A DNA stretch of 64,000 nt from Halorubrum sodomense (GTDB lineage Archaea > Halobacteriota > Halobacteria > Halobacteriales > Haloferacaceae): contig NZ_FOYN01000005.1 in assembly GCF_900111935.1 (NCBI RefSeq), positions 1 through 64,000 of the forward strand, given 5' to 3'. The notes beneath the pieces are model-generated. The model saw nothing but the letters and a program-made list of their open reading frames with translations. It ran no database searches and was not told the DNA's origin. Numbering within the stretch: the first letter of the stretch is position 1; each line of letters opens with the position of its first letter. The translations under genes and the position numbers were made by a program. Of the stretch, positions 10,876 through 13,549 are shown in pieces.

Positions 10876-10978
10876 CCGGGTCGCGTCCTCCGATTCGTCC
10901 GTTCCGTGTCGCGTGTTGTCATGGAACATTTAAACGGGTAAAACAACATAACGAATATTATCATTATCAATCATTATG

Positions 10979-10985
10979 TTTATTA
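10979..10985 (+). promoter_or_regulatory. TATA-like box of the aceA operon
   Basis: TTTATTA inside an AT-rich patch (about 10920-10990), centred near 10982. A start about 27 bp downstream falls at 11009, just before the ATG at 11012 of the first tiny ORF. This puts the tiny ORFs at the 5' end of the isocitrate lyase transcript. Confidence 0.5.
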
Positions 10986-11011: not shown

Positions 11012-11110
11012 ATGGCAGTATCCGTACACGGACACGCAGCGACCCGACGCACGGACTCGATCACCAGACGACCGCCGCAACCGCCCACACGACCCGATGA
11101 CGACACCTAA
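11012..11110 (+). CDS. Tiny leader ORF 1 of the aceA operon (32 aa)
   Basis: MAVSVHGHAATRRTDS begins a 32-codon frame whose ATG is 30 bp after the TATA-box centre, the position expected for a leaderless start. It is basic and rich in Pro/Thr/Arg and overlaps the next ORF by 14 bp. There is no recognisable domain. It may be a regulatory leader peptide or a chance frame; the promoter spacing and the chain of overlaps argue for translation. Confidence 0.35.
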   Translation: MAVSVHGHAATRRTDSITRRPPQPPTRPDDDT

Positions 11111-11411
11111 CGACACGAGCGAAGACACGACCCGACGCACCGACAGCACGACCGACCGACGCACGGAGTCGGACACGACGACTTCTCCCGAACGGATCCC
11201 CGGCCGCATCCCGCCCACCGAGGAGGCGGGCGCGCCGCTGGTTCCGCCGATCGCCACCCGCCGAGCCGCGGGGACGCGGTCGCCCGGCTCGTCACCGCGG
11301 ACCGAGACCCGCTCCCGAACGCGCCCGCCGACGGACGGCGAGCGCGACGCGCCGCTCGTCCCCGACATGCGTCCCGCCTCGCGGACGCGGACGGACGGGG
11401 GGTCGCGATGA
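11097..11411 (+). CDS. Small Thr/Arg-rich ORF 2 upstream of aceA (104 aa)
   Basis: A 104-residue frame rich in Thr, Arg, Pro and Asp, with no hydrophobic core and two similar segments, EAGAPLVPPIATRRA and RDAPLVPDMRPASR, suggesting an internal repeat. It is predicted to be disordered. Its TGA overlaps the ATG of ORF 3 (ATGA junction), as in translationally coupled genes. I recognise no family. Codon use is GC-rich like the neighbours, so the frame could be either real or a consequence of base composition. Confidence 0.4.
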   Translation: MTTPNDTSEDTTRRTDSTTDRRTESDTTTSPERIPGRIPPTEEAGAPLVPPIATRRAAGTRSPGSSPRTETRSRTRPPTDGERDAPLVPDMRPASRTRTDGGSR

Positions 11412-11584
11412 GTTCGTTCCGCCGCGCCGTCCCGCTGGCGCCGGCCGGCGACGGCCCGCGACCGGACGCCACGGCGTTCGCGCCGACGAGGCGCACCACC
11501 GCGTCGAACCGGACCGCGCCGGAACAGACTGCGCCGAACCGGACCGCGCCCAACCAGACCGCAGACGACGCCGCCACGCAGTAA
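11408..11584 (+). CDS. Small Ala/Pro/Thr-rich ORF 3 upstream of aceA (58 aa)
   Basis: 58 codons beginning [16 protein letters not shown], with a repeated TAPxQ/NRTAP pattern near the C-terminus ([19 protein letters not shown]). It has no domain. The ATG overlaps the stop of ORF 2 by 4 bp, and its stop lies 4 bp before the isocitrate lyase ATG. The tight spacing suggests coupling to aceA translation; function unknown. Confidence 0.4.
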
Positions 11585-11588
11585 CCCG

Positions 11589-12629
11589 ATGAATCCCAAC
11601 GAACTCGACGACGACGTCTTCGACAGAGACATCGACAACCCGGCCGGCCGGCGGCTCCGCGAGCTGTTCGACGAGCAGGAGTACACGTTCGCGCCGGGGA
11701 TCTACCACGCGCTCGACGCCCGCCTCGCGGAGATGGCCGGCCTCGACGCGGCCTACATGAGCGGCTACTCGACCGTCCTCGGCCAGTTCGGCTTCCCCGA
11801 CCTGGAGATGGTGACGATGAGCGAGATGGTCGAGAACGCGAAGCGCATGGTCGAGGCGACGAACCTCCCCGTCATCGCGGACTGCGACACCGGCTACGGC
11901 GGCGTCCACAACGTCCGCCGCGCGGTCCGCGAGTACGAGAAGGCCGGCGTCGCCGCCGTCCACATCGAGGACCAGACCTCGCCGAAGCGCTGCGGCCACA
12001 TCGCGGGCAAACAGATCGTCTCCCGCGAGCAGGCGCGGTCGCGCTTCGAGGCCGCGGTCGACGCCAAGCAGAGCGAGGACACGGTGATCATCGCCCGCAC
12101 CGACGCGTACGGCTCCGCCAACGGCGACTGGGAGGAGCACCTCGAACGCGGCCGGATCTACGCCGACGCCGGGGTCGACCTCGTCTGGCCGGAGATGCCC
12201 GACCCGTCTCGCGAGGACGCGGTCGAGTACGCCGAGACGATCCACGAGACGCACCCCGACCTCGACTTAGCCTTCAACTACTCCTCCTCGTTCGAGTGGG
12301 GCGCCCAGGAGGACCCGCTCACCTTCGAGGAGCTGGGCGACCTGGGCTACCAGTACATCTTCATCACGCTGTACGGGCTCCACTCGGGCGCGCACGCCGT
12401 CTACGAGGACCTCTCGAACATCGCCGAGAACGACGAACAGGCGCAGTTCGACCTCGAGGAGCGGTACATCGGCCACGAGACCGAGAGCCACCACGAGCTC
12501 TCCTTCGTCCCGCGCTACCAGGAGGTCGAGGCAGAGTTCGACCCCGAGGCGCGCAAGCGGCAGGAGGAGTCGGCCGGCTTCACCGAGGAGGAGAACGACC
12601 CGATCACGGCCTCGGAGGGCGACGACTGA
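11589..12629 (+). CDS. aceA: Isocitrate lyase (ICL/PEP-mutase superfamily)
   Basis: 346 residues; expected to split isocitrate into glyoxylate and succinate in the glyoxylate shunt. The catalytic loop KRCGH is at 133-137. The metal-site region ADCDTGYGG is at about 98-106, and HIEDQ is at 125-129. The protein is short, like haloarchaeal ICLs, and lacks the insert of E. coli AceA. 2-methylisocitrate lyase shares KRCGH, so substrate is inferred from context: its stop overlaps by one base the start of a malyl-CoA-lyase-type gene, and a CoA transferase lies beyond. The three tiny ORFs 5' of it share its promoter. Confidence 0.87.
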
Positions 12630-13549
12630 TGGGCGGACCGGACGACGTCACGCTCCGACGGAGCCAGCTCGCGACGCCGGGATCCGACCCGGAGATGATC
12701 GAACGAGCGCCCGACTCCGGGGCCGACGAGGCGTTCCTCGACCTGGAGGACTCCGTCGCGCCCGCGGCGAAGGTCGACGCCCGCGAGAACGTCATCGAGG
12801 GGCTGATCGAGTACGACTGGTCCGACACCCGGCCGTGCTACCGGATGAACGGCGTCGACACCCGGTGGTTCTACGACGACGTGATCGAGGTCGTCGGGCG
12901 CGCCGGCGAGCACCTCGACACGATCATGGTGCCGATGGCGAACAATCCGGAGACGGTCGCGACCGTCGACAACCTCCTGACGCAGGTCGAGGCGAACAAC
13001 GACCTCCCGATCGGAGGCATCGGCCTCCAGGCGCAGATCGAGTCGCCCGAGGCGATGACGAAGGTCGCCGACATCGCCCGCGCGAGCGACCGCCTGGAGT
13101 CGCTCGTGTTCGGTCCCGGCGACTACACCGCGAACGTCGGCGCCGCGGGGCTCACCATCGGCTCCGGCGGCGGCTACCCCGGCCACTACTGGCACTACCA
13201 GCTCGCGCGCATCGCGCACGCGGCGAAGGCGCAGGGGCTACAGGTGATCGACGGCCCGTACGCCGAGATCGAGGACGCGGCGGGGTTCCGCGACTCCTGT
13301 CGGTGGGCGAGCCAGCTGGGCTGTGACGGCAAGTGGGCGATCCACCCGAGCCAGATCGAGCCCGCCAACGAGACGTTCGCGCCCTCGCCCGAGGAGGCCG
13401 AGAAGGCCCGTCGGATCGTCGACGCCTACGCGGAGGCGAAAGAGCAGGGCAAGGGCGCCGTCTCGGTCGACGGCGAGATGGTCGACGAGGCGACAGACAA
13501 GATGGCCCGCGGCATCGTCGCGCGCGCCGAGCAGGCGGGGATCCTGTAA
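12629..13549 (+). CDS. CitE/HpcH-HpaI family lyase, probable malyl-CoA lyase or malate synthase partner
   Basis: 306 residues of the CitE-like C-C lyase family. DEAFLDLEDSVAP (about 31-43) holds a conserved acidic cluster, IGLQAQIESPEAM the metal-binding Glu region, and LVFGPGDYTANVG the second acidic ligand. IHPSQIEPANETF is the C-terminal family motif. In Halobacteria, members act on malyl-CoA or beta-methylmalyl-CoA, joining glyoxylate to acetyl- or propionyl-CoA. Directly after isocitrate lyase with a 1-base stop/start overlap, it most likely consumes the glyoxylate made there. It is shorter than the 430-residue haloarchaeal malate synthase AceB, so I do not call it malate synthase. Confidence 0.8.
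   Translation: MGGPDDVTLRRSQLATPGSDPEMIERAPDSGADEAFLDLEDSVAPAAKVDARENVIEGLIEYDWSDTRPCYRMNGVDTRWFYDDVIEVVGRAGEHLDTIMVPMANNPETVATVDNLLTQVEANNDLPIGGIGLQAQIESPEAMTKVADIARASDRLESLVFGPGDYTANVGAAGLTIGSGGGYPGHYWHYQLARIAHAAKAQGLQVIDGPYAEIEDAAGFRDSCRWASQLGCDGKWAIHPSQIEPANETFAPSPEEAEKARRIVDAYAEAKEQGKGAVSVDGEMVDEATDKMARGIVARAEQAGIL

Follow-up and report, generated by a model that had tools for sequence, protein, structure and literature searches.

Multivalent disordered enzyme linkers such as EPYC1 and CsoS2 contain multiple binding repeats within one disordered chain. In cyanobacteria, CP12 and IF7/IF17 are small proteins (~65–150 aa; CP12 is disordered), each dedicated to one enzyme or complex of central metabolism (reviewed in PMC7760959). 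Leader peptides and conserved uORFs are short ORFs at the 5' end (peTrpL, PMC7298713; uORF4u, PMC10219788), and MtrR of Methanosarcina mazei is a small archaeal protein that, in the outline of PMC13370731, is reported to modulate a metabolic enzyme complex. Neighbouring genes can further be joined by termination-reinitiation. Of 14 overlapping gene pairs tested in Haloferax and E. coli, 13 showed strictly coupled translation (PMC6728339). A distance of ~20 nt nearly abolishes coupling, and Haloferax pairs spaced by −8 to +10 nt encode complex subunits in 45.2% of cases as compared to 5.6% for pairs spaced by >20 nt, i.e., 8.1 times as often (PMC10666635). Haloferax volcanii cannot grow on acetate without the glyoxylate shunt (PMC7746861), and no protein partner of haloarchaeal isocitrate lyase was described in the literature searched.

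Here we describe small genes upstream of the isocitrate lyase gene aceA of Halorubrum sodomense that, by analogy, appear most like CP12/IF7-type regulators combined with termination-reinitiation coupling. They are not sequence members of the CP12 or IF7 families: no sequence relation to CP12, IF7 or IF17 was seen, CP12 and IF7 were absent among the Pfam and NCBIfam matches of the small proteins, conserved cysteines as in CP12 are lacking, and inhibition is here only proposed. Unlike the genes of these regulators, the haloarchaeal small genes lie inside the operon of the enzyme itself, with overlapping stop and start codons. Nearly all of their junctions are ATGA overlaps or gaps of no more than ~5 nt, as in the Haloferax termination-reinitiation pairs, but here two to four tiny ORFs are chained before the enzyme and a 14-nt overlap is added. 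The first ORF is short and conserved, lies at the 5' end, contains rare codons and closes with PPxPP, all of which recalls leader peptides and conserved uORFs, whereas no attenuator structure or Rfam match was found here and the second and third ORFs look like real proteins. The likeness to MtrR is one of description, as far as the outline of PMC13370731 goes; enzyme and lineage differ.

The window, i.e., the whole stretch of 64,000 nt analysed (contig NZ_FOYN01000005.1, positions 1 to 64,000), contains three small ORFs that are co-directional with aceA on the forward strand. ORF1 (11012–11110) encodes a 32 aa leader peptide (MAVSVHGHAATRRTDSITRRPPQPPTRPDDDT) with a probably leaderless start, frequent A-ending codons and PPQPPTR near its end. 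It overlaps by 14 nt (11097–11110), the proposed coupling junction, with ORF2 (11097–11411), which encodes a low-complexity, probably disordered protein of 104 aa of the APxVP family. ORF2 in turn shares the 4 nt of an ATGA junction (11408–11411) with ORF3 (11408–11584), a Halorubrum-specific small protein of 58 aa with a variable tail. After a gap of 4 nt follows aceA (11589–12629; isocitrate lyase, 346 aa, Pfam PEP_mutase/ICL), which is near the annotated aceA of Haladaptatus NZ_CP111040, and then a CitE-like (HpcH/HpaI) gene of 306 aa (12629–13549). The coordinates, both overlaps and the gap given in the preliminary description of this DNA were confirmed base for base, and the TATA-like box that it placed ~30 bp before ATG 11012 is TTTATT at 10979–10984, 28–33 bp away.

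The region has a G+C content of ~74%, at which spurious ORFs are common, and many unrelated ORFs overlap the same stretch. Open frames by themselves are thus weak evidence, and our case was built on comparison of loci, each comprising aceA and the ~1.4–1.5 kb preceding it, taken from genomes across the genus, family and class. Among the loci read, none of the Halorubrum loci that carry the resident aceA type lacked ORF2, and nearly all of these ORF2 sequences had the N-terminus MTT and the two blocks IPGRxPxTEEAGAPLVP and PPTDxERDAPLVPDLRP. Altogether, an ORF2 counterpart with E-x-D-APLVP-D/F-L/I lay directly upstream of aceA at 83 of the 108 full-length loci (at least six haloarchaeal families), and the family consensus over all module ORFs was E-x-D/E-A-P-L-V-P-D/F-L/I. 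ORF2 of the window is such a small same-strand ORF directly upstream of aceA and carries the motif twice; the copy in its second block (RPPTDGERDAPLVPDMRP, 11322–11375) fits the class-wide consensus. Variants in other genera and families were ENMDAPLVPFI together with a helix with heptad spacing, TDAPLVPDL...DPFELALMEDSE, EEDAEAPLVPLI with two copies, and a compact form, ENTGAPAVPDL...SHRI. Two motif copies were found in 50 and one copy in 29 of the 83 module ORFs. A P[LIVMAT][VCI]P-type motif was present in 83/83 module ORFs as compared to 2.2 in shuffled sequences, a comparison in which the motif definition derives from the same data set and the motif itself helped to find the ORFs. Composition was of low complexity, with 7–24% VILMFYWC in 12 module sequences. 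In the H. sodomense genome itself, the DNA pattern for D/E-A-P-L-V-P occurred only at this locus.

The peptides had been called unknown, and they indeed gave no credible match in Pfam, NCBIfam or Rfam. A hypothetical protein encoded on a plasmid of Haladaptatus caseinilyticus (WP_266080981.1) is like ORF2 in lying upstream of aceA, where it ends 4 nt inside aceA, and contains EEEAPIVPIV; it differs from ORF2 of the window in its length of 62 aa and its single motif copy, and is annotated without a function. The literature search yielded no paper on HVO_1984/HVO_1985 or on a small protein associated with haloarchaeal isocitrate lyase; the study of the Haloferax ace operon by Serrano and Bonete (2001) lay outside this search and may mention an upstream ORF. 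The preliminary description was right in outline, but of the repeats that it stressed, TAPNRTAP of ORF3 is not conserved and is confined to the variable tail of this strain, whereas APLVP, which occurs twice in ORF2, is deeply conserved. It overlooked that the conserved parts are not repeats as such but the APLVP blocks of ORF2 and VPMAGTGDGPRPD of ORF3, and likewise the class-wide ORF2 family, the travelling of the module with aceA, and a strongly conserved promoter element.

Pairwise counts over the Halorubrum loci gave an in-frame pN/pS of 0.58 for ORF2, versus 1.15 and 1.67 in the two other frames. Values were 0.23 in block 1 (IPGRIPPTEEAGAPLVP, 11196–11246) and 0.17 in block 2, as compared to 0.80 in the linkers. 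For ORF3, pN/pS was 0.73 in frame versus 0.98 and 1.29 in the other frames, with 0.22 in the 17-residue VPMAGTGDGPRPD block (11429–11479; genus consensus VPMAGTGDGPRPDPTTF) and 0.94 in the remainder; aceA had 0.16 in the same counts. Blocks of low pN/pS amid near-neutral linkers resemble short functional motifs in disordered linkers, as judged from these codon counts. ORF2 was intact in all Halorubrum loci read, and in two species in which ORF3 is split (loci L003 and L011) fresh ATGA junctions re-couple the chain, so that the search for frameshifts and stops in relatives, proposed in the preliminary description, came out in favour of its ORFs. Its guess of small proteins likewise gains from the codon-level selection apparent in ORF2 and ORF3. 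Frame-specific pN/pS, conservation of the motif across families, the maintained chain and the co-inheritance with aceA described below all speak against chance ORFs in GC-rich, stop-poor DNA before aceA, an explanation we regard as very improbable; this comparison refutes it for ORF2 and also, as far as Halorubrum is concerned, for ORF3, while the frame test of ORF1 is weak. ORF2 is almost certainly a functional translated protein.

On a tree of 108 full-length AceA proteins, which derive from related species and whose locus counts are not independent events, module presence took 3 changes as compared to a mean of 22.7 after shuffling. Eleven Halorubrum genomes without a close aceA also lacked ORF2, and in Halorubrum genome G029, whose AceA clusters with module-free sequences of another family, the module is absent. 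The module was retained whether aceB, a CitE-like gene or neither follows aceA; the CitE-like gene is thus dispensable for module presence, and aceA rather than aceB is the constant companion. AceB was considered as a partner and judged unlikely, because the module persists where aceB is missing or replaced. Among the other Halorubrum genomes, a full-length AceB match (75% identical) came from a single one and a partial match from G029, and the best AceB match in the H. sodomense genome is the CitE-like gene at 12629–13549 and not the haloarchaeal malate synthase AceB. Two aceA genes that group with foreign sequences bear the leader type of the respective group, namely none at locus L061 (G029) and a compact one at L055 (G073), which suggests that leader and aceA were transferred as one unit.

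Because ORF2 and its strictly kept motif travel together with aceA, the protein is probably a so far unrecognised partner or regulator of isocitrate lyase. That AceA itself is the binding partner, as linkage, coupling statistics and the form of the motif suggest, is a tentative assignment to which we give a little less than an even chance. Alternatively, ORF2 might act in trans, its APxVP motif contacting a partner other than AceA (the ribosome, a CoA enzyme or a regulator of acetate-regulon transcription, for example), with its expression alone being tied to aceA. Such a partner would agree with the 25 of 108 aceA loci without the module, at which AceA evidently can do without it, and with the fact that we only infer the binding of AceA by ORF2. 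We nevertheless consider it unlikely given the strict positional linkage and co-inheritance with aceA, the absence of ORF2 from the aceA-free Halorubrum genomes, and the coupled-pair statistics, which speak for a complex between the coupled products (PMC10666635).

Chains running from ORF1 through ORF2 (and ORF3) to aceA were unbroken under the chosen distance limits at 62 of 70 loci, as compared to 5.5 expected from first-order Markov shuffles, and broken under the same limits at the other 8 of 70. This supports, as far as gene arrangement can, the earlier suggestion of translational regulation. Junctions of −4 were the commonest type (84 cases), −14 occurred at 38 junctions, and other genera mostly had −4 or −1 between ORF1 and ORF2. 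The ORF2–ORF3 (−4) and ORF3–aceA (+4) junctions of the window lie within the coupling range of −8 to +10 nt, and the 14-nt overlap of ORF1 and ORF2 exceeds it. From these arrangements, translational coupling along the chain appears likely.

The unbroken chain and its re-made ATGA junctions are also in keeping with a leader that acts in cis only, i.e., translation of the chain would set aceA expression by coupling, attenuation or pausing at PPxPP of ORF1, and the released peptides would be functionless. Nucleotide-level conservation of ORF1, its PPQPP end and rare codons (GTA, for instance), and the missing long SD match at most module aceA starts agree with this, but the strong amino-acid selection on the motif blocks of ORF2 and ORF3 (pN/pS 0.17–0.23) between near-neutral linkers does not. 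Nascent-chain arrest calls for a fixed distance from the motif to the regulated start, whereas the last ORF2 motif is 10–81 residues from the ORF2 stop across the family. With this variable distance and, in Halorubrum, with ORF3 intervening between ORF2 and aceA, an arrest peptide in ORF2 acting on aceA is ill-suited. PPxPP of ORF1, the candidate pausing site, lies near the ORF1 stop. Regulation by RNA structure or a riboswitch was rejected: the fold z-score was +1.06, Rfam gave no match, and the leader had no terminator-like site. A scan of the leader for sigma-70 promoters and terminators, with models that are ill-suited to archaea, likewise gave no match. Overall, we rate a purely cis-acting leader as quite unlikely.

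Most aceA loci, with the module present or absent, have a promoter element (AATATTATCATTATNNNTCATNA) and, behind it, a T-rich box in their upstream DNA. The copy in the window (AATATTATCATTATCAATCATTA, 10954–10976) recurs with 0–2 mismatches upstream of most aceA loci of the class, and the position of the TATA box relative to it is conserved. Element-to-aceA distances were 66–223 nt in most module-free loci (two near 360 nt) and 245–755 nt in loci with the module. The 32-nt block 10953–10984 is unique in its own genome with up to three mismatches allowed. Across the class, the ~23-nt element and T-rich box (10954–10984) are nearly unchanged upstream of aceA, and a regulator responding to acetate or the carbon source may act there. 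In all Halorubrum loci 58 nt separate the start of ORF1 from the element, and this fixed spacing marks ATG 11012 as the likely ORF1 start of the window and fits leaderless or nearly leaderless initiation; a second in-frame ATG upstream, at 10976, coincides with the TATA box. Elsewhere the spacing is mostly ~67–68 nt, and several genera with this spacing have SD-like GGTGAGG or GAGGTG before ORF1, which we count as suggestive support for the coupled leader operon.

Across genera and families, 66 of 76 leader ORFs had GTA as codon 3 (11018–11020 in ORF1 of the window), as compared to 5 of 2155 valine codons (~0.2%) in aceA at these loci. The whole-frame test of ORF1 was weak (0.71 versus 0.80 and 0.99), and a nucleotide-level constraint may therefore act on it; its PQPPTR block had a pN of 0.028 and a pS of 0.173. 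By these counts, ORF1 appears to be conserved mostly as nucleotides and its PQPPTR stretch as protein, and ORF1 as a peptide-level feature throughout was set aside because of the weak frame test. Some module-free leaders retain ATGCGTAC near the position of ORF1 codon 3.

Protein-coding selection on ORF2 and ORF3, conservation of the motif, co-inheritance of the module with aceA and maintenance of the chain are strongly supported by the sequence comparisons. From these we infer translation in the cell, coupling, disorder, AceA binding and an effect on activity. In the coupled leader operon that we propose, transcription would begin at the conserved promoter, at or just before ORF1. Ribosomes would translate ORF1 first and then re-initiate at ORF2, ORF3 and aceA by means of the overlapping or nearly touching stop and start codons, so that the small proteins would be made in step with AceA. 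ORF2 would be an intrinsically disordered protein that carries a short linear motif once or twice and, in several other genera, also a short coiled-coil helix. The motif would bind AceA or a complex containing it, and ORF2 could thus act similarly to CP12 or IF7, be it as an inhibitor, an assembly factor or a multivalent linker. Taken as a whole, this coupled leader operon with a disordered ORF2 that binds AceA through its motif stands at about an even chance.

A read-through chain of ORF2 and AceA (TGA read as W), feasible because ORF2 and aceA share a frame and modelled to look for docking of APLVP, was poorly predicted throughout by AlphaFold2 (mean pLDDT 39, 15 close rows). An aceA deletion strain of H. 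volcanii regained growth on acetate when aceA was provided in trans (PMC7746861); coupled synthesis is therefore unlikely to be essential for activity, and tuning, assembly or clustering suits ORF2 better than an essential coupling. It is conceivable, if somewhat doubtful, that a haloarchaeal family of disordered motif proteins, coupled on the same mRNA, assembles, clusters or switches isocitrate lyase. If true, the entry enzyme of the glyoxylate shunt would have a partner protein, and a chain of tiny coupled ORFs would serve one enzyme. The small-protein family, which precedes most of the aceA genes examined, would then be a testable regulator or assembly factor, disordered motif proteins would be held in step with their enzyme through coupled translation, and low-complexity ORFs in GC-rich archaeal leaders would prove to be genuine genes in some cases.

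One locus (L014) carries a partial second copy of the aceA start and an undetermined base just upstream of aceA, and the partial copy is possibly an assembly fault. Two genera (L051 and relatives, g6 and g21) have an extra conserved ORF of 29–42 aa with MTFNPNPxTDLDxIDDRELSLF, which follows ORF1 and precedes the APLVP ORF; at L051 it is situated ~289 to 199 nt upstream of aceA and is coupled by ATGA. It is another lineage-specific small protein of the same leader.
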